Of a stretch of DNA of 10,340 bases, positions 62 through 10,340 are shown one piece after another. The DNA comes from Candidatus Delongbacteria bacterium (GTDB lineage Bacteria; UBA4055), in NCBI GenBank assembly GCA_016937995.1, contig JAFGVM010000010.1, positions 1-10,340 on the forward strand, written 5' to 3'. Numbering within the stretch: position 1 is the first letter of the stretch; each line of letters opens with the position of its first letter. A program made the translations under genes and the position numbers. The notes below the pieces were generated by a model. The model was not told the origin of the DNA, did no database searches, and saw only the letters and a list, made by a program, of their open reading frames with translations.

Positions 62-820
62 CTAATGCATCTGTTCGTCATCAAAAGCAGGTTCTTTATA
101 AACAAATTTGAAATAGATGAACAGGAATATGATTATCGCGATCATGAACACAATCGAAGCCTGCCAGTTCTCTGCCAATACCTGTGCTCTACCTATAAAT
201 AATGCGATCCTTCCCATTACTGTAGCACCGAATGAAGCTCCGAAATTTATCATTAGAATTATAATACCGATCCTTGCTGTTTTTCCAAAAAGTCCCTTAT
301 GAGGTTTTGAGAAGAAGAAATACAGAAGACCTGCAAATGTTCCAAAAATGATCACTATCCATTTTGTCACTTCGAAAAAAGAAGGTTGTTCAAAGATAGG
401 ATGCATCATATTGTCCGCCTGAATAAACAGAGACTGGACATTTATTGGGATCTGGTAACCTGCAAAATATGCAAATACAAAAGCAAAGTAATAATTTGCC
501 ACCCAGGCTTTTGTTCTTGTAAATCTAAAAAATAAAGTTGATCCCATTGCCAGCCAGAATACCATAACAAGATCATATGCATTAAAATCAATTGCCGCAT
601 CTTTGATCGGTCTGATAAGATAAGGTACAACTGTTACGTACCACAATTTAGTCCAGCCGTATCCTAAAGAAATACCAAGAAAAGTATTTTCCCCGAACTT
701 GTACAATGGATTATCTCTATACAGGAATGAAAGTATCATAAGTGTAAATAGAACTGAAACCCATATCTGGATAGTAGGGTTCAATATTGTTGAGTCTATT
801 AAATTATTGAATAATTCCAT
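62..820 (-). CDS. Multi-pass membrane protein, last gene of a four-gene membrane operon (function unknown)
   Basis: This 252-residue protein is almost entirely hydrophobic. I see about seven likely membrane segments, near residues 17-35, 46-68, 82-100, 108-124, 153-171, 182-212 and 222-243. The C-terminal tail is short and acidic (EPAFDDEQMH). There is no signal peptide, enzymatic motif or transporter signature that I recognise. The ATG at 820 is preceded by AAGG about 10 nt upstream. The gene starts 16 nt after the stop of the 280-residue protein and is followed at once by a strong terminator, so it is the last gene of the operon. It probably forms a membrane complex with the three upstream products; this is inferred only from tight spacing and the shared membrane character. 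Confidence 0.85.
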   Translation of the reverse strand: MELFNNLIDSTILNPTIQIWVSVLFTLMILSFLYRDNPLYKFGENTFLGISLGYGWTKLWYVTVVPYLIRPIKDAAIDFNAYDLVMVFWLAMGSTLFFRFTRTKAWVANYYFAFVFAYFAGYQIPINVQSLFIQADNMMHPIFEQPSFFEVTKWIVIIFGTFAGLLYFFFSKPHKGLFGKTARIGIIILMINFGASFGATVMGRIALFIGRAQVLAENWQASIVFMIAIIIFLFIYFKFVYKEPAFDDEQMH

Positions 821-836
821 AATTTGTTCGCCTTGT

Positions 837-1679
837 TTAAATTTTCTTTACCTTCTTCTCAAATAGATAGATCAGATTACCGATCGCAATGAACATGAAC
901 ATGACCAGATGTGATAATGTAAGTGATGCCATTCCGGCATTCGCTTTCCTGTTGAATTTTTTATCGGAACCTGCTTTTACTCTGATGTTCTCATATTCTG
1001 CGGCTCCCTTTAATCCGAATAACATACCCTGCAGCTGACCTGTTTGAAGAAACGGAATGTAATCCGGTCCGATAACAGCTGTAACACCCACCTGCATTTT
1101 AAAACCGAATCTTCGCTGTAATAAAATATAACTTTCAGGCCATGATGAACCTGAGAAGCACATAACATATTTTATATCTGCAAAAGTATTCAACCCTTTA
1201 AATATTTTACCCTCTTTACCGAAAGTACCTTTAAAATCTGAATACATCGAGAAAAGAAGCATGTCGGTCATTAGAGGTAAATATCCTAAGTTCTGATAAT
1301 GGACACCTTCTTCTATATATTCGTATCCGGGTTCCTTCTGAAGTTTTGCCAAAGCATTTTCACCAAGGCTGATACCTGTCAAAAACGGGAAATATATGAA
1401 TACTCTCAATTTTTTATCAAAGCACTGTTTTAATGTTTGTTCTGCCATAGGAAGTAATTCAGCCTGAGTAGTTGGATCAAAGGCCCAGTCGATAAAAACA
1501 GCATCCCCTTCCTTAAGTTCATTAATATTGTCATAGAAAGCAATAGTTTCCTTTGTTTCAGAAAATTCCTGATTAAGAAATTCAAATCCGGGAAAGAACG
1601 GTAGAATACAAGACAGGAAAATAAGTAAATATATCCATCTCTTGTCTATCTTTTTTAACTTTTCAACTAATTTATCCAT
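837..1679 (-). CDS. Membrane-anchored protein with large extracytoplasmic domain (function unknown)
   Basis: The protein has 280 residues. A basic N-terminus (MDKLVEKLKKIDKR) precedes a membrane segment at about 15-33. A hydrophilic alpha/beta domain of roughly 215 residues follows, then a C-terminal membrane helix (about 254-273) ending in the basic tail EKKVKKI. Positive charges at both ends suggest that both termini are cytoplasmic and the middle domain lies outside the membrane. Alternating strand-like and helix-like stretches (GDAVFIDWAF, KLRVFIYF, IKYVMCFSGS) suggest a Rossmann-like fold, but I recognise no nucleotide-binding or catalytic motif. The ATG at 1679 has AGGGAT upstream. The gene starts 23 nt after the 204-residue membrane protein gene and belongs to the same operon. 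I cannot assign a family. Confidence 0.85.
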   Translation of the reverse strand: MDKLVEKLKKIDKRWIYLLIFLSCILPFFPGFEFLNQEFSETKETIAFYDNINELKEGDAVFIDWAFDPTTQAELLPMAEQTLKQCFDKKLRVFIYFPFLTGISLGENALAKLQKEPGYEYIEEGVHYQNLGYLPLMTDMLLFSMYSDFKGTFGKEGKIFKGLNTFADIKYVMCFSGSSWPESYILLQRRFGFKMQVGVTAVIGPDYIPFLQTGQLQGMLFGLKGAAEYENIRVKAGSDKKFNRKANAGMASLTLSHLVMFMFIAIGNLIYLFEKKVKKI

Positions 1680-1702
1680 AATTTATATCCCTAATGAATT
1701 AT

Positions 1703-2317
1703 TTACTCTGATATATGAGATCTTTCAAGTCCGAAGGCTATTCTGATCATCATTGTTAATCCCCCAAGATATGCTCCGAAAAGAATTGCTCTTTTCCCGG
1801 CACTTGTAGGACCGTCCATTATCCACTCTCCGATAACGGGTATTTTACTCCACATTGCTTCACCTAAAGGTATCTTGCTTAACATTATAAAAATAGCTGC
1901 TACAAGCAAAAATGCTGATTCTATGGATTTTATTCTGAAGGATCTGTATGAGGCTGAAGCAACATAGAATGCCAATAATGAGAAAACAGTAGCATCAAGC
2001 GGCACAAAACCAAATGTGAACATCGCATCGAAAGGAGTTCCTGGATTTACACCTCTTGTCACACCTAAAAGTATCATAAATCCGATCAAACTCAATTGAT
2101 ATACAGAAAACCACCTGTCATTATTATACTTGATCCTTTTGAAATTAATTCTCAGTACACTGAAAGCTCCTACAAGAAGACCGACTATGGTAACTGTCTT
2201 GAATCCGTTAGTAAAGAACATTTTCCAGTTCTCGAAGAATGTCCCGGCCATGAAGAATTCCAAGTACCAGCCAATTGTGGCAAAAAATCCTATCAGTAAC
2301 GGTATTTCTTTTTTCAT
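1703..2317 (-). CDS. Small multi-pass membrane protein of the DUF6754-linked operon
   Basis: The protein has 204 residues and about six predicted membrane segments, near 5-25, 38-56, 70-88, 107-124, 130-147 and 174-195. The C-terminal stretch contains SAGKRAILFGAYLGG followed by RIAFGLERSHI. A conserved-looking Gly/Arg-rich motif leading into the last helix suggests a functional site rather than a simple anchor. The ATG at 2317 has a good ribosome site (AAGGAT about 9 nt upstream). It begins 25 nt after the stop of the DUF6754-like gene, consistent with cotranscription. I recognise no transporter or enzyme family. My recollection that small proteins of this kind accompany DUF6754 genes in other phyla is uncertain. 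Confidence 0.85.
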   Translation of the reverse strand: MKKEIPLLIGFFATIGWYLEFFMAGTFFENWKMFFTNGFKTVTIVGLLVGAFSVLRINFKRIKYNNDRWFSVYQLSLIGFMILLGVTRGVNPGTPFDAMFTFGFVPLDATVFSLLAFYVASASYRSFRIKSIESAFLLVAAIFIMLSKIPLGEAMWSKIPVIGEWIMDGPTSAGKRAILFGAYLGGLTMMIRIAFGLERSHISE

Positions 2318-2342
2318 AATGATATATCCTTAAGTTACTTTA

Positions 2343-4172
2343 TTATCTGGTATTTACTAGATCCTGAAGGAATGTCCATTCAGAATTTATTGTTAGGAAT
2401 ATCGTTCCTATAATGAACAATATACCAATAGTTATTTTTGCATAGTCCGAAAGCTTGAGATTGGTTAAAATCTGAGCATCTCTGGAAATATATGCCGCAG
2501 CAGCATACAGCTCTTCTCCGATCAGTGTGTAATCACAAGCAGTTATAAAGAATGGTAACTGACCCACTGATGTAGTACCTGCCACCTGTATAGCTCCTGC
2601 TGAAAATCCTGCTTCAGCAATTAGAAGGGATTCTGCAAGATAGAATCCGAAATGCAATGCAGTTGCAGGTTTTTTTCTTGCAAGCAATCCTGCAATTCCA
2701 GCTGCAAATGCAAACTGGTCAGCTGCGAGATAAAAAACATTGTCCTTTTTATGGTCTTCAGGATAACCCGCATCCAAAAATCCTGATGCTACCATTTCTT
2801 CTGATATCTGCATTACTACAGGGTCACAAGTAGGAACATATATCTCAGCTTTGAATTCTGCAACTTTCTTAGCTACACTTTTCAGGATAAGCATACTGGC
2901 AATAGTATCAATATTTGAATAAGCACCAATACCTGAATCATAAACTATAGGTCTTCCCATTTCAGTAGCTCTTCCTATTGCATCATCAATAGCATCTAAT
3001 CCGGGTATTCTTCTTATGAACATAGAGTCCTTACTCCTCTTGACCCTTCTGAATATGAATACGAATAACATCATGAATAAAATAGTTCCAACAAAAACAT
3101 TAAGCCTGAAACTTCTGAAAAGAGGTTGGTATTCATACTGAATGTAAAATCCAAATTTACCTACTAGACCGCTGTAAAATTTATATTTGATAAGATCATT
3201 GAAATTTTGCTCAAAGGAATCATTGGAATCCTTTATTGATAGAAGGAATTCATCAGATATATCAAAATTTTTAATATTTCTTTCTACTTTCAGTGAATCT
3301 AAATATTCTGTAACTATTTTACTGATCCTTCTTGATTCATAATCCAAAAGATCGAACATGGTAGCTCTTTTTTCCTCTAACCAATATTCTTTTGAAGAGA
3401 TCAGCTCATTTCTTTTTTTATCTATAAGTTCGGATCTCTTTTCTTCTATATATCTGTTCAATTTATCAACAAAGAATTTGTCTAATTTTGATTTTTCATC
3501 CTGAGATGACAGTTGCATTCTTTTATACTGCAGCAGCATCATGTCATTATTGTATTGTTCATCATCCAACAGATCATCTATGACCTTCAGGTCACTGATA
3601 TTTTTTAGAGAATCAAGTTGAAGTTCATTTTTACGCATTTCATCCAGAAGTTCTTGGATATAGACTTCCTGATCTTTGAGCAGTTTGTCTGAATTGGCTC
3701 TGGAATGATCACCAAGTTTTTTTGCTATTAATTTTAAGTTTGAGGAAATATCTTCATCTATATAACCCCAGTAAAAATCTTTTTCTGCTGAATATCTTGA
3801 TATTTCTTCATAAACAGATTCTTTTAAGCCTTTATAAGCTACAAAAGTCCTTCTTTCGTAATCAGTTAATTTCTCACCTGACTTTTCCTTAACGAACAAC
3901 TCTTTTGTAAATTCCGGAAAATCATCATAAAAATCGGTTACAAATTCTTTGATCCTTGGATACAATATCTTATAATTTTCACTACTGTCCCAGTTGTCAT
4001 AGATTTTCATGATCTCTTCAGCAGCTTCCTTACATAACATTTGTTCTTCTGAAAGTTCCGAAGGTTTTTCAGAGGATGTTATTTCAGATGTATTTCCGGT
4101 TGAGGTCTCTTCCTGAGCTGACATGGTTATTGTGAATAAAAAGATCAGGATAATTAGGTAAAATTTTTTCAT
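2343..4172 (-). CDS. Secreted coiled-coil/transmembrane protein with DUF6754-like C-terminal domain
   Basis: This is the first gene of the membrane operon (609 residues). Residues 1-20 form a signal peptide, with likely cleavage after MSAQ. Residues 40-330 are highly charged and helical, with probable coiled coil around 160-295. A transmembrane helix lies at about 357-375, followed by a basic RRVKRSK stop-transfer patch. Residues 388-575 (starting RRIPGLDAIDDAIGRATEMG) are rich in Ala/Gly and match my memory of the DUF6754 family, which has no known function. A final hydrophobic helix spans about 580-597. The expected topology is coiled coil outside and DUF6754-like domain inside. The ATG at 4172 has AGGGAA 7 nt upstream. 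The domain name is recalled and was not checked by a search. The gene call itself is certain. Confidence 0.85.
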   Translation of the reverse strand: MKKFYLIILIFLFTITMSAQEETSTGNTSEITSSEKPSELSEEQMLCKEAAEEIMKIYDNWDSSENYKILYPRIKEFVTDFYDDFPEFTKELFVKEKSGEKLTDYERRTFVAYKGLKESVYEEISRYSAEKDFYWGYIDEDISSNLKLIAKKLGDHSRANSDKLLKDQEVYIQELLDEMRKNELQLDSLKNISDLKVIDDLLDDEQYNNDMMLLQYKRMQLSSQDEKSKLDKFFVDKLNRYIEEKRSELIDKKRNELISSKEYWLEEKRATMFDLLDYESRRISKIVTEYLDSLKVERNIKNFDISDEFLLSIKDSNDSFEQNFNDLIKYKFYSGLVGKFGFYIQYEYQPLFRSFRLNVFVGTILFMMLFVFIFRRVKRSKDSMFIRRIPGLDAIDDAIGRATEMGRPIVYDSGIGAYSNIDTIASMLILKSVAKKVAEFKAEIYVPTCDPVVMQISEEMVASGFLDAGYPEDHKKDNVFYLAADQFAFAAGIAGLLARKKPATALHFGFYLAESLLIAEAGFSAGAIQVAGTTSVGQLPFFITACDYTLIGEELYAAAAYISRDAQILTNLKLSDYAKITIGILFIIGTIFLTINSEWTFLQDLVNTR

Positions 4173-5180: not shown

Positions 5181-5765
5181 CTATTTATTAAATTTTTCAG
5201 CGAAAGCTTTTCCGGCTTCCAGAGCTTTAACATTCAAGTTGACCATCTCTTCACCTTTGCGACCGAAAATAAATTTTATACCTTCAATAAGCTTATCAAA
5301 TTCAATACCAAGGAATGAGGATGCAGCACCTATCATTACCATGTTCATTGATCTTGGCGATCCAATCTCTTTAGCAATATCATCGGCATTGATAAGAATG
5401 TGATTATCTAATTTTTTTATCTGCTTGTATACATCTTCTGTCTCAGGGTAATTAACGATATTGTTAAAAGGTTTATCATTAGTTATGACCCATCCGTTTT
5501 TGGATAAGTAAGGTAAATATCTTAGCGATTCCATAGGTTCTACAGAGAGGATCATATCAGCTCCACCGAAAGGTATCAGGTCTGAAAATATCTCTTTGTC
5601 AGATATTCTGAAATGAGATTGTACATCTCCACCTCTCTGGCTCATTCCGTGAACTTCAGCCTGCTTCAGGTATAATCCGGAATCAACAGCAGCATATCCG
5701 ATCACAGTTGCAATAGATAAAATACCCTGTCCGCCAACACCGCATAGAATTATATCTTTTTTCAT
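5181..5765 (-). CDS. iorB: Indolepyruvate:ferredoxin oxidoreductase, beta subunit
   Basis: IorB is the gamma-type (pyruvate/ketoisovalerate oxidoreductase) subunit. It pairs with IorA to convert arylpyruvates from aromatic amino acids to aryl-acetyl-CoA, reducing ferredoxin. The sequence carries GVGGQG at residues 9-14 and EVHGMSQRGG at 37-46, both hallmarks of this subunit. I chose the ATG at 5765 (194 residues) over a TTG six bases upstream: GGGAG abuts that TTG with no spacing but sits 6 nt before the ATG. The ribosome-binding site overlaps the iorA stop codon, and the iorA-iorB gap is 10 nt, indicating translational coupling. A terminator follows the gene. Confidence 0.93.
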   Translation of the reverse strand: MKKDIILCGVGGQGILSIATVIGYAAVDSGLYLKQAEVHGMSQRGGDVQSHFRISDKEIFSDLIPFGGADMILSVEPMESLRYLPYLSKNGWVITNDKPFNNIVNYPETEDVYKQIKKLDNHILINADDIAKEIGSPRSMNMVMIGAASSFLGIEFDKLIEGIKFIFGRKGEEMVNLNVKALEAGKAFAEKFNK

Positions 5766-5775
5766 TTGCAACTCC

Positions 5776-7368
5776 CTATTTCTTTTTAAGTTTTCTTTTT
5801 AAAGTCTGCATACATTCTCTTGTAGGTATTATAACAGAAACACCATTATAAGCGATCTCTTTTCTGATCAATTCAACAAGAGCCTCATGGTTTTGCTTGA
5901 TCGGATTGACCCTTGTTATGTGGTCTTTCTCAACACCAAGACCCTCACATATACTTACAAGTCTGTCCAATGCATGAGAATCCTGCCCGCCTGTCATTCC
6001 GGTTGTTGAATTATCAAGTATCATCACAACAATATTCGTACCTTCGATCACAGCATCTAGAAGTCCTGTCATTCCTGAGTGAGTGAACGTTGAATCTCCT
6101 ATTGTTGCAATTACAGGGAATAAACCTGAATCAGCAGCTCCTTTCGCCATTGTGATAGAAGCTCCCATATCAACACAGGAATTAATTGACTGGAAAGGAG
6201 GTAAAGCTGCAAGTGTATAGCATCCAATGTCAGAAAGAACATGACCGTCACCATAATCAGCCATTACTTCCTTTATAGCGTTATAGGCATCAATGTGACC
6301 ACAACCTTTACAAAACTGAGGAGGTCTGCCTTTAACCTCTTCAGGGATCAGGTTCATTTCCACTTTTTCGCCGTTAATTGCCTGTAGAACTAGATTTGGG
6401 TTCAATTCACCATCTCTCGGTAAAGTCCCATCAAGTCTTCCACGTATGTTAAGACAATCTCCTAAATATCCTTTCAACATCTCCTCTATCATAGGAGCTC
6501 CTTCTTCAAGAACGAGTATTTCTTTGCATTCAGAAGTTATCTTTTCAACCATTTTTCTAGGTAGAGGATACTGGCTCACTTTGAGTACAGGGAAAGGACA
6601 GGTTGAATCTGTATAATTTTCCATAAGATAATTATAGGCTATACCGCAAGCTATAATACCTTTACTTTTATCGGAACCCCCGATAAATTTATTGAATGGA
6701 GAATTTTCACTTTCAGTTTCGAATTTTACCTGATTATCCAAAAGCATTTTGTACCTTCTTCTCGCTATTGCAGGAAGAAGAACGAACTGTCTTTTGTCTT
6801 CAGGCAGTTTTAATTCATTCTCAGCTATCATATCTTTTGTAGCGACACCACTTCTAGAGTGAGATAATCTTGTTGTCAATCTCATCATAATCGGGATCTG
6901 ATACTTTTCTGATATTTCAAAAGCATGAAATGTCATATCATAACATTCCTGTTGATTAGACGGTTCAAAAATCGGGATCATCGCAAATTTACCGTAGATC
7001 CTGCTGTCCTGCTCATTTTGAGAAGAATGCATGGAAGGATCATCCGCGACAGTTACTATTGTACCACCATTAGCACCTGTTATCGCAGAGTTCATAAAAC
7101 AATCCGCAGCAACATTCAATCCTACGTGCTTCATTGTACACATTGATCTCTTTCCTGCATAAGACATTCCTAGAGCAGCTTCTGCAGCTGTTTTTTCGTT
7201 TGCAGACCATTTTCTGTGGATATTTCTTTCTTGTGCTGTTTTAGACCTTTGAACATATTCAATGATCTCTGTTGAAGGAGTTCCCGGATAACCGTAGATA
7301 CCGGACATTCCAGCGTCTATTGCACCCTGAGCTATTGCTTCATCTCCAAGTAAAAGTAATTTCTCCAT
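5776..7368 (-). CDS. iorA: Indolepyruvate:ferredoxin oxidoreductase, alpha subunit (form without C-terminal ferredoxin domain)
   Basis: IorA is the thiamine-pyrophosphate subunit of the enzyme that oxidises arylpyruvates with CoA and ferredoxin. The N-terminal domain has GYPGTPSTEI (26-35). A CKGCGH motif at 353-358 introduces the TPP domain. The TPP/Mg signature runs from GDSTFTHSG (424-432) to LDNSTTGMTGGQ (451-462). The protein ends at residue 530 with a lysine-rich tail (KRKLKKK). The eight-cysteine 2[4Fe-4S] ferredoxin domain that closes the roughly 600-650-residue archaeal type is absent. Such short forms occur, as I recall, in Bacteroidota. The end is a normal stop feeding directly into the iorB ribosome site, so it is not a truncation artefact. 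The ATG at 7368 has AAAAGGAAA upstream. Confidence 0.93.
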   Translation of the reverse strand: MEKLLLLGDEAIAQGAIDAGMSGIYGYPGTPSTEIIEYVQRSKTAQERNIHRKWSANEKTAAEAALGMSYAGKRSMCTMKHVGLNVAADCFMNSAITGANGGTIVTVADDPSMHSSQNEQDSRIYGKFAMIPIFEPSNQQECYDMTFHAFEISEKYQIPIMMRLTTRLSHSRSGVATKDMIAENELKLPEDKRQFVLLPAIARRRYKMLLDNQVKFETESENSPFNKFIGGSDKSKGIIACGIAYNYLMENYTDSTCPFPVLKVSQYPLPRKMVEKITSECKEILVLEEGAPMIEEMLKGYLGDCLNIRGRLDGTLPRDGELNPNLVLQAINGEKVEMNLIPEEVKGRPPQFCKGCGHIDAYNAIKEVMADYGDGHVLSDIGCYTLAALPPFQSINSCVDMGASITMAKGAADSGLFPVIATIGDSTFTHSGMTGLLDAVIEGTNIVVMILDNSTTGMTGGQDSHALDRLVSICEGLGVEKDHITRVNPIKQNHEALVELIRKEIAYNGVSVIIPTRECMQTLKRKLKKK

Positions 7369-7732: not shown

Positions 7733-8038
7733 TTAAATCCTGATCCCTGTCCGAATAATTTCTTCCAGGAAAGGATTATGTTGTTCAACATCACTTTTTT
7801 CAAACGGGTGAGGTTCGATTCTTAGGTCAATTTTTCTGACAAGTTTCATAAGTTCAACTCTTGTATCAAACCTGTCTTCCATTTTATCGAATACCAGTGC
7901 AACATCAATATCACTGTCTTCATTAAAGGTTCCTTTTGCGTAGGAACCAAAAAGATAAGCATTTATTATTTTATACTTCCTAATCCCAAGAATATCGATA
8001 TATCTTTTTATTATTTCTGTAATAGTTGTTTCAACCAT
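7733..8038 (-). CDS. MNT-type minimal nucleotidyltransferase (putative antitoxin, HEPN partner)
   Basis: This 101-residue polymerase-beta-fold nucleotidyltransferase carries the signature GSYAKG (31-36) followed by DSDID (41-45), the GSx10DxD metal- and nucleotide-binding motif. A third acidic residue is likely at Asp71 in KIDLRIEPH. Proteins of this size usually act with a HEPN partner; in characterised HEPN/MNT systems the MNT protein AMPylates and neutralises the HEPN toxin. Here it follows and overlaps the HEPN gene by 28 nt. The ATG at 8038 is the first possible start, because an in-frame TAA lies two codons upstream. Its Shine-Dalgarno sequence is poor, suggesting coupled translation. 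The catalytic residues look intact. The antitoxin role is inferred from the family. Confidence 0.9.
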   Translation of the reverse strand: MVETTITEIIKRYIDILGIRKYKIINAYLFGSYAKGTFNEDSDIDVALVFDKMEDRFDTRVELMKLVRKIDLRIEPHPFEKSDVEQHNPFLEEIIRTGIRI

Positions 8039-8403
8039 AATTTATTCTCTTTTATTTTCTTATTCCATATATTCGTGTAATTTGAAGTACATTTTTTATA
8101 AAATTCAGCCTTATAATCTTCATAACGGGCTTCGATATTGAATGAAGTAATAACTGTCAGGTCATCCATTTGAGTTTCGGTAAGTTTCAGTTCAGCTTTG
8201 TCAGCAATTCTAAGTAAATTATGAATGTAAGGTGGTTGTTCGTTTTTAATTTTTATATAATAAGCTTTTAATAATTTCTCAATAACCAGATGTCCCACAA
8301 ATAATGACCAACTGTAATCCTTTTTCTCAAATAAGTGTTCGATTGCGATATAATCCTGCTCGGCAGACTCGATCCAGTGATTTATCATATCTTTTTGTTC
8401 CAT
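8011..8403 (-). CDS. HEPN-domain protein (putative toxin or partner of MNT)
   Basis: This 130-residue all-helical protein matches the HEPN family: an N-terminal helix WIESAEQDYIAIEHL (10-24), FVGHLVIEKLLKAYYI (35-50), PPYIHNLL (57-64) and SFNIEARYEDYKAEFYKK (87-104). The RNase-type HEPN motif Rx4-6H is not evident: no histidine follows Arg93 at the expected distance. Catalytic toxicity is therefore doubtful, and it may serve as a nucleotide- or substrate-binding partner. The ATG at 8403 has AAAAGG 7 nt upstream. It starts 69 nt after the stop of the DGR reverse transcriptase on the same strand, so it may be transcribed together with the DGR. Confidence 0.88.
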   Translation of the reverse strand: MEQKDMINHWIESAEQDYIAIEHLFEKKDYSWSLFVGHLVIEKLLKAYYIKIKNEQPPYIHNLLRIADKAELKLTETQMDDLTVITSFNIEARYEDYKAEFYKKCTSNYTNIWNKKIKENKLWLKQLLQK

Positions 8404-8472: not shown

Positions 8473-9561
8473 TCACACGCAGAATGTAAATTCATAATTC
8501 TTATCCTGATGCATAAACTTGATTTTGTCTAAAATGCCATTAATCAGTCGAACATACTTTCCTTTTCCAATAAATCCAAGCCATGAATTTAACGACATTA
8601 GTATCGATTCAAATTGTATTTTACCGTCTTTCAAATATCTGCTGTACTTTCTCATTTTGATTATGAATCTTTTCAGGTTACTCCTCAATATTTTGATTCT
8701 GCCTTTGTAAAGATGAAAACCAAGATATGACAGTCCGTTCTTCAAATTAATTAACATTGATTTATTTCTGTTAAGTTTCAAACGGTTTGATCCCAAATAT
8801 TTTTCGATTTCATTGAATGCATCTGCAAGCTCCAATTTGCTGTCTGTAAATATAATTATGTCATCCATATACCTGACAAATGATTTGATTCTTAATTTTT
8901 CACATATCAGCCTGTCAATCTGATTCAGATAAAAATTCGCGAAAAGCTGGCTTGTCAAGTTACCTATCGGTAAACCTTTACACCTTGCATAATCAAACAA
9001 AGTATCGTCTTCAAATCCCATATAATATTCCTGACCGGTATCGTGTGTTTCAAGAAGTAATTTTATGAGTGAAAGCAGTTTTTTATCAGATATCTTCTTT
9101 CTTAATTTCTTAAGCAAATTTTCATGATCTATTGAGAAGAAATACTTTTTTACATCCAACTTGAGAACATATTTATATTTTCTGACATACTCAACTGCTT
9201 TTGAGATAGCTCTGTGTGAACCTTTATTGTATCGGCAGGCATAAGTCTGATGCATTAGCGTTTTATCTATCATAGGCTCAAGAAAATTGCATATTGCGTG
9301 ATGAACCACTCTGTCTTTGAATGGTGCTGCCGATATTTTTCTTTCCTTTGGATCAGTTACGACAAATTCATTATACCCGCTGAATCTAAAAGTTCCGTTC
9401 TTAAGTTCTTGCTGAATCTTAAACAAGTTACTTTCAAGATCGTATTCAAATTCGCTTACTTCCTTTTTATTTCTCTTACCTTTTCTTGCTTTTCTGTAAG
9501 CTGAATACAAATTATCGAACTCATAAATTTTATTGTAAATGTTTTTATATTTAATCCCCAA
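8473..9561 (-). CDS. Diversity-generating retroelement reverse transcriptase
   Basis: This 362-residue reverse transcriptase copies the TR RNA into adenine-mutagenised cDNA. Motif 2 lies near RKISAAPFKDR (74-84). Motif A is LKLDVKKYFFSID (133-145), and motif C is the catalytic YMDD (231-234). Motif E is YLGFHLYKGR (279-288). The decisive mark is motif B, GLPIGNLTSQLFANFYL (196-212): the IGxxxSQ form is characteristic of DGR enzymes, where group II intron and retron types usually have QG. There is no maturase or endonuclease domain, as expected. Translation appears to start at TTG 9561, overlapping the avd stop by 11 nt, with no strong ribosome site and no alternative methionine near the N-terminus. 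This suggests coupling to avd. The next gene is the HEPN gene. Confidence 0.95.
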   Translation of the reverse strand: MGIKYKNIYNKIYEFDNLYSAYRKARKGKRNKKEVSEFEYDLESNLFKIQQELKNGTFRFSGYNEFVVTDPKERKISAAPFKDRVVHHAICNFLEPMIDKTLMHQTYACRYNKGSHRAISKAVEYVRKYKYVLKLDVKKYFFSIDHENLLKKLRKKISDKKLLSLIKLLLETHDTGQEYYMGFEDDTLFDYARCKGLPIGNLTSQLFANFYLNQIDRLICEKLRIKSFVRYMDDIIIFTDSKLELADAFNEIEKYLGSNRLKLNRNKSMLINLKNGLSYLGFHLYKGRIKILRSNLKRFIIKMRKYSRYLKDGKIQFESILMSLNSWLGFIGKGKYVRLINGILDKIKFMHQDKNYEFTFCV

Positions 9562-9895
9562 CTTTCAGCCAGCCTCCGGTCATTTTTCCTATTTCATCAA
9601 TTTCTTTTGAAGCATATTCGTAAGCCTTTATAGTTAAGCATTGAGTATCTTTTGAAAGCCTGATGAGAAATCTTAATTTCTCTAGAGAGAGATTCACATT
9701 TTTTAAAAACTGCTTTTTTGACCTGCCGTATTTAGCTTCAATTATATTTTCAAGTATATCAAGCATCAGAGTAAAAATCCTGTCTCCGAGGTTGTATTTG
9801 TATTTTTTGGGATATTTAGCGAATTTATCCGAATACCAGAGCATCAAGTCATACAGCTTCGGCAGGATCGTTATTTCATTATTCATTTTTTCCAT
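9551..9895 (-). CDS. avd: DGR accessory variability determinant, Avd-like four-helix-bundle protein
   Basis: In studied DGRs Avd is a small basic pentameric four-helix bundle that binds the reverse transcriptase and the template RNA and is needed for mutagenic retrohoming. This 114-residue protein is helical throughout and strongly basic. It has the family pattern KYNLGDRIFTLMLDILENII (33-52), then the KYGRSKKQFL region, and ends with TGGWLK. The ATG at 9895 is used; a second ATG three codons in (9886) is an alternative, with GGA spaced before it. The gene sits between the TR-bearing noncoding RNA region and the reverse transcriptase, with an 11-nt overlap into the latter. The family assignment rests on pattern and context. 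Confidence 0.9.
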   Translation of the reverse strand: MEKMNNEITILPKLYDLMLWYSDKFAKYPKKYKYNLGDRIFTLMLDILENIIEAKYGRSKKQFLKNVNLSLEKLRFLIRLSKDTQCLTIKAYEYASKEIDEIGKMTGGWLKVGD

Positions 9896-10044
9896 TCAAT
9901 TTATCCGGTTTTGGGGTAATTACAGATTATTTAAAAACGAGCAGATCAAGGAGAATTTAGGATTTCAAAATGGAGCTTAGTTTAACCTAAGTGACATTGC
10001 AGAAATTGAAATTCAACGCAGATATCCGAAGTTTTTAATAATCT

Positions 10045-10088
10045 GGAGCGGCACCTTTCTCAACGAAAAAAATACTCAGAACCGCTCC
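10045..10088 (-). other. Bulged stem-loop in the DGR RNA spacer
   Basis: Arms GGAGCGG (10045-10051) and CCGCTCC (10082-10088) pair perfectly. After a 4-nt bulge, TTCT (10057-10060) pairs with AGAA (10078-10081), leaving a 17-nt loop with an A7 run (U-rich in the minus-strand RNA). It is the most GC-rich structure between TR and avd. No T-run follows its base on the minus strand, so it is not a terminator. Its position suits the structured spacer required for DGR cDNA priming. Confidence 0.55.
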
Positions 10089-10145
10089 CCTGTTACAATA
10101 TTCGCCCTTTTACAGGCAGGATACGACCTGGACTATTTTGCTCTC

Positions 10146-10173
10146 TTTTATTTCTGTGCTGCATGAAATAAAA
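10146..10173 (-). other. Stem-loop just downstream of the template repeat
   Basis: TTTTATTTC (10146-10154) and GAAATAAAA (10165-10173) make a perfect 9-bp stem with a 10-nt loop. It begins a few bases past the 3' end of TR as transcribed. In some DGRs a hairpin follows the variable repeat and helps target recognition; here it follows the template copy. It may instead shape the RNA or be duplicated from the target gene. Confidence 0.55.
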
Positions 10174-10178
10174 CTCCC

Positions 10179-10304
10179 GCTTATGCATAGTATTGCAATA
10201 CGAAACCCGTTGTTGTTGTTCTTGTTGTCTGGGTTGTTGTTGTTGCGGTTTGAAACTTTGCAGTTGTTGTCGTTGTTGTTCCACGACCCGCCACGAACAA
10301 CACG
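10179..10304 (-). repeat. DGR template repeat (TR)
   Basis: Read from 10304 on the minus strand, codons give RVVRGGSW, then runs of Asn (AAC), and finish with GFRIA near 10194. This is the C-type-lectin/formylglycine-enzyme-like fold segment that DGR variable regions encode. There are 15 AAC codons between 10280 and 10209, interspersed with GAC, TGC, AAA, TCA, CGC, CCA and AAG. AAC is the ideal DGR codon: mutating its two adenines samples 15 amino acids and never gives a stop. An in-frame TAA at 10313-10311 and the absence of an upstream start mean the repeat is not translated here, so it is the template rather than the variable copy. The outer boundaries are approximate because no VR is available for alignment. 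Confidence 0.9.
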
Positions 10305-10320
10305 GTTCGTTTATTGTTCG
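10294..10320 (-). other. Inverted repeat at the 5' edge of the template repeat
   Basis: CGAACAA (10294-10300) and TTGTTCG (10314-10320) are perfect 7-bp arms with a 13-nt loop. An alternative 5-bp pairing exists inside (10294-10298 with 10305-10309). It straddles the upstream boundary of TR on the minus strand and may form a small RNA hairpin. It could also be a chance repeat. Confidence 0.35.
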
Positions 10321-10340
10321 GTCATACCCTTTATTTCAAA
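10311..10340 (-). other. Possible 3' end of an upstream gene (partial, very uncertain)
   Basis: On the minus strand the frame open from the window edge reads FEIKGMTEQ followed by TAA (10313-10311). The stop lies seven bases before the TR reading begins and in the same frame. It may be the C-terminus of the gene preceding the DGR, possibly the target gene, but nine residues are too few to judge. A chance open frame is equally likely. Confidence 0.12.

Follow-up and report, generated by a model that had tools for sequence, protein, structure and literature searches.

The window analyzed here is the whole of contig C40, 10,340 bp of a 2.75-Mb Candidatus Delongbacteria genome (97% complete), and it almost certainly carries a complete chromosomal diversity-generating retroelement (DGR) that would rewrite two predicted exported FGE-fold proteins—one in cis, one in trans. 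In such elements a reverse transcriptase (RT) and the accessory variability determinant (Avd) copy a template repeat (TR) with errors, and the product replaces a variable repeat (VR) in a target gene. The system is of an ordinary kind; its layout is uncommon and its evolutionary history well preserved. Contig ends had cut off its targets, which, as read from sequence, would now complete it: two lectin-fold proteins predicted to be exported, one of them caspase-bearing. Because a DGR may coincide with a contig break, genome assembly can easily part its donor half from its target half.

The original prediction, made from the letters of the window, placed a TR, an Avd-like gene, and an RT with an IGNLTSQ motif together on the minus strand; all three are present there (Table 1). 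It further held that the 10.3-kb window contains no VR, that the target must lie upstream past position 10,340 or elsewhere, and that a genome search with the TR should find it. Apart from the TR's own position on C40, the strong matches in that search were VRs on contigs C13 and C56 only, two copies differing from the TR mainly at adenines. Both predicted locations are occupied: C13 lies directly upstream, overlapping the window's end by 31 bp, and C56 lies elsewhere.

Table 1. Positions of the element's parts, its targets, and adjacent genes (window coordinates unless a contig is named)
Feature	Coordinates	Strand	Description
TR, VR-matching core	10304-10193 (10193..10304)	-	112 bp; matched by both VRs
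TR-avd spacer	9896..10192	-	297 nt; GGAGCGG...CCGCTCC hairpin inside
avd, accessory variability determinant	9895-9551 (9551..9895)	-	114 aa
DGR RT	9561-8473 (8473..9561)	-	362 aa; TTG start; 11-bp overlap with avd
HEPN and MNT nucleotidyltransferase genes	7733-8403	-	mutually overlapping; begin 70 bp past RT
Window/C13 overlap	10310..10340 (=C13:1-31)	-	31 bp exact, contig ends
VR1	C13:127-237	-	3' end of target gene C13:114-1460 (-), 448 aa
VR2	C56:33306-33422	-	3' end of 741-aa caspase-FGE gene

The TR core (RVVRGGSWNNNDNNCKVSNRNNNNPDNKNNNNGFRIA) contains 42 adenines in 112 bp, mostly within AAC codons. Across this core, VR1 differs from the TR at 24 of the 42 adenines and at none of the 70 other positions (P = 2e-13), and VR2 at 22 of 42 adenines and 3 of 70 other positions (P = 5e-9), the three exceptions falling in codons 3-4 at its 5' edge. 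The mismatch to template adenines by which DGRs are recognized thus accounts for 24 of 24 changes in VR1 and 22 of 25 in VR2; a 112-bp repeat pair with 24 mismatches, all at template A, is far beyond chance. The TR 3' end (CGGGTTTCGTATTGC; 15 bp) is identical in TR, VR1, and VR2 and resembles an IMH. Past it the repeats part, the TR continuing AATACTATG and the VRs A/G-AGGACT, so that the shared 3' element, the divergence beyond it, and a hairpin behind the VR—together typical of a DGR—are all present. The G/C-only 14-mer of the Bordetella IMH is absent from the TR and from the VRs. Overall, the RNA structure of the TR-avd spacer is unremarkable (z −0.70), and an Rfam search of the window gave no match.

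Both VRs end FGE-sulfatase domains and so occupy the 3' end of a gene with a C-type-lectin fold, as expected of DGR targets; among the 11 FGE genes of the genome, only these two match the TR at the DNA level. The VR1 target joins a FlgT_N-like N-terminal part to its FGE-sulfatase domain. The VR2 target consists of a Peptidase_C14 (caspase) domain (PF00656, 4.7e-18), a long linker, and the FGE domain, and by inspection it retains the caspase His (FFSGHG) and Cys (VDACR) motifs. Each begins with a hydrophobic segment, and both proteins are probably exported. Among solved structures, the target matches the Treponema denticola variable protein 2y3c best (3e-37), with true FGE enzymes ranking behind it. 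The target's variable residues lie within the segment that aligns to the variable region of TvpA, so ligand binding at the cell envelope is likely to vary with them. The DGR thus likely varies the ligand-binding face of envelope proteins, one of which would be coupled to a caspase-type protease. That the VR2 target acts as a sensor-protease is a guess.

The Avd assignment rests on NCBIfam DivGenRetAVD (111 bits; equivalog cut-off 80) and Pfam bAvd (5.6e-21), and Avd supplies the accessory protein—Avd or HRDC—expected of a DGR. The RT matches PF00078 (3e-29) and carries an RYMDD catalytic box and LPIGNLTSQ, the latter invariant among aligned relatives. Its top PDB matches are 8ub7, which we take to be the Bordetella phage enzyme bRT, and relatives labelled "Reverse transcriptase" (8e-52); retron-type and group II RTs come next, only at 8e-20. 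In a tree built without a non-DGR outgroup of sure identity, the window RT groups at 99/100 with RTs of Cloacimonadota and Planctomycetota (L085–L087), whose loci each hold a TR/VR pair, and apart from the other RTs of its family. PDB ranking, alignment (IGNLTSQ in place of QGxxxSP), and tree thus agree with the predicted placement among DGR RTs. Such a placement is consistent with an outside origin or with intermediates having been lost. The RT was not found in two genomes of the same genus (88% and 79% complete), so the element is not indispensable.

C13 ends in 31 bases identical to the start of the window's minus strand, which places the target gene directly upstream of the TR; in the joined C13-C40 sequence, 118 bp separate the target stop codon from the TR core. 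Indirect support comes from two further contigs. On C56, the sequence following VR2 can be aligned first with the C13 flank and then, past the junction, with the bases that precede the TR. In G005, from another genus of the same family, a single contig holds a target, the hairpin, and GGGTATGGCCGAACAACAACGGCTTTCGTGTTG in succession; GGGTATGGCCGAACAACAACGGCTTTCGTGTTG can be read as the pre-TR sequence joined to the TR right end, the TR having apparently been deleted between short AACAA repeats. The end overlap, the C56 flank, and the G005 relic together support VR1 as a cis target and the order target-TR-avd-RT.

This order is uncommon. It occurs in none of 117 four-element loci of relatives (VR-avd-TR-RT in 67, VR-avd-RT-TR in 29, others fewer), nor in 17 further loci from the L085 phylum, every one of them VR-avd-RT-TR; two of these 17 duplicate loci already counted, and the survey covers about 130 DGRs. 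An apparent TR-VR-avd-RT order at L144 is probably a chance repeat. The original prediction was correct that the TR lies upstream of avd, in place of the avd-TR-RT layout of the Bordetella phage element, but drawing the contrast with Bordetella only was too narrow, since the T. denticola DGR (TvpA) has the order target-TR-HRDC gene-RT (PMC4891356).

About 60 bp downstream of both VR1 and VR2 is an AT-rich hairpin (CTTCTTTTTCTTTT-loop-AAAAG..AAAAAGAAG). The exact pattern occurs twice in the 2.75 Mb, once behind each VR, and folds as DNA at −8.2 kcal/mol, the same for VR1, VR2, and G005. L085 (Cloacimonadota) and L086 (Planctomycetota) have the same hairpin type (CTTCTTTTT...AAGAAG) downstream of the VR; wherever the full palindrome occurs in their genomes or in G003, it follows an FGE-type target. 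The CTTCTTTTT sequence was rejected as a marker shared by the whole RT clade: Other members carry hairpins that differ in sequence or show no 8-bp hairpin, which agrees with a published view in which the structure of the hairpin matters, not its sequence (PMC3240598). Across the survey, perfect stems of at least 8 bp follow 41 of 140 VRs of relatives vs. 29 of 657 control windows.

How the element would work can be modeled on Bordetella phage, where RT-Avd copies the TR error-prone and the VR is replaced (PMC3240598). The TR would be transcribed to RNA, RT and Avd would copy this RNA into cDNA while misreading template adenines, and the mutagenized cDNA would replace the 3' end of the target genes (mutagenic retrohoming). 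Homing would be guided by the identical 15-bp TR/VR 3' end and the hairpin past each VR, with the neighboring FlgT_N-like/FGE protein as cis target and the caspase-FGE protein as trans target.

The trans target appears to have been acquired by recombination. The C56 caspase gene is 84.5% identical to a G005 caspase-FGE over 477 residues, and its FGE domain is 77.1% identical to that of the VR1 target and 70.7% to that of G005. Behind the C56 hairpin, GTTGTCCGTCTCTCATAG... aligns locally to GTTGTTCGTCTCCCATAG... with a score of 57 (best of 2000 shuffles, 29), and this stretch probably represents the remains of the caspase-FGE gene's old end. That old end and the TR left edge have CGTGTTGTTCGT in common, which suggests, as the simplest reading, one event in which a VR-hairpin-TR-edge block recombined into the caspase gene at the CGTGTTGTTCGT microhomology. 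Such capture would be possible because the TR sits between target and avd, not behind the RT, so that VR, hairpin, and TR edge could move as one block. Only tentatively do we generalize that DGR target sites spread as a mobile cassette of VR, IMH, and hairpin through recombination at the TR left edge, by which pre-existing genes—here an exported caspase—would become trans targets.

The same C56 flank, with its old caspase-FGE end past the hairpin and TR left edge, would also fit a reading in which only the neighboring FGE protein is a live target and VR2 is a one-off recombination product never rewritten in trans; the three non-adenine differences at the VR2 5' edge point the same way. We regard this as unlikely. 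VR2 and VR1 disagree at 33 positions, but VR2 departs from the TR almost only at A, so the TR was the source of VR2, copied either later than VR1 or independently of it. VR2 has also kept an intact IMH-like end and hairpin. Targets at a distance are moreover normal in T. denticola (PMC4891356) and are diversified in trans in Thiohalocapsa, from which putative antigen sensors with effector domains are known (PMC10907252).

Relics are common in the family, and they raise the question of decay. The G005 genome keeps a VR (on C51; 28 of 41 A and 3 of 71 other positions changed relative to the window TR), the hairpin, and the internally deleted TR, and no RT was found in it. G003:C91 has kept the hairpin, an avd shortened by an internal deletion, and a target whose VR 3' flank is almost identical; an old VR in G002 differs from the window TR at 28 of 40 A and 10 of 71 other positions. 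The window element could likewise be an inactive one with intact-looking parts, its VRs the frozen products of past activity, a reading we hold to be quite improbable: RT, avd, and both targets are full-length here, and VR1 has 0 of 70 non-adenine changes vs. 3 of 71 and 10 of 71 in the relic VRs. The complete DGR is instead probably active at present. With its target-TR-avd-RT layout, the sister-genome relics—deleted TR, deleted avd, drifting VRs, and a captured VR cassette—would form a stepwise record of target gain and element death. Finally, ordinary paralogous FGE domains beside an unrelated group II-type RT, suggested by the abundance of FGE genes and by an RT match to the group II RT/maturase model (158 bits, below the cut-off of 300), are refuted by the adenine-specific TR/VR mismatch counts, with Avd, DGR motif, tree, and PDB rank all against them.

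Among known systems, T. denticola is similar in its target-TR-accessory-RT order with the accessory gene overlapping the RT, in its several exported FGE-fold targets, most of them remote, and in relic targets in strains without RT and TR (PMC4891356); its variable protein is the solved relative noted above. It differs in its accessory, an HRDC protein there and Avd here—the window has no HRDC gene between TR and RT—and in that one target here bears a caspase domain. Bordetella phage BPP-1 (mtd-avd-TR-brt) shares Avd and RT homologues, adenine-specific TR/VR differences, a C-type-lectin target, and a hairpin past the VR; here, however, the element is chromosomal, with TR upstream of avd and no G/C-only 14-mer, and its hairpin is AT-rich and removed from the VR, where that of BPP-1 follows directly. 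The L085–L087 DGRs share RT clade, avd, and TR/VR and differ in having the TR downstream of the RT (VR-avd-RT-TR). Cyanobacterial orthocaspase-CLec variable proteins fuse a caspase-type peptidase to a DGR-variable lectin-fold tail (PMC7517822), the same fusion as in the VR2 target; the present case lies in another phylum, with a signal-peptide-like N terminus and probable trans diversification.

The neighborhood is chromosomal, not phage, given the housekeeping and signaling genes upstream of the target on C13 (by inspection, an EF-P-like protein, sensor kinases, and a transcription-repair coupling factor-like helicase) and, downstream of the RT, the HEPN-MNT genes and genes for a 2-oxoacid:ferredoxin oxidoreductase and a diaminopimelate epimerase. 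The HEPN-MNT genes form a type VII-like toxin-antitoxin pair, and similar genes lie near the DGR of G003:C8 (L079:578-883, 5393-6089). Four predicted membrane proteins, one with DUF6754 and otherwise without annotation, run through window positions 62-4172 on the minus strand.

The survey yielded further observations. At the G003:C8 locus (L079:1-8593), the DGR RT is truncated and accompanied by two TR-like copies and several exported caspase-FGE genes, whole or broken; G005:C39 (L064) carries a VR of its TR type (19 of 36 A, 7 of 89 other). Three other DGR RTs occur in G003, two with HRDC and avd genes, and one, with HRDC, in G004; two sister-genus DGRs (L078:767-3303 and L077:620-2529) combine both accessories as HRDC-avd-TR-RT. 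Six caspase ORFs with a VR were found at five loci (L132, L138, L141, L160 twice, and L163), L160:2072-11437 being a DGR locus from Blastocatellia in which two of four caspase-like ORFs contain VRs. At L114:2038-2409, L175:5658-6044, and L232:5623-6039, avd lies on the strand opposite to the RT and overlaps the RT start; in L175 and L232 it sits between TR and RT.
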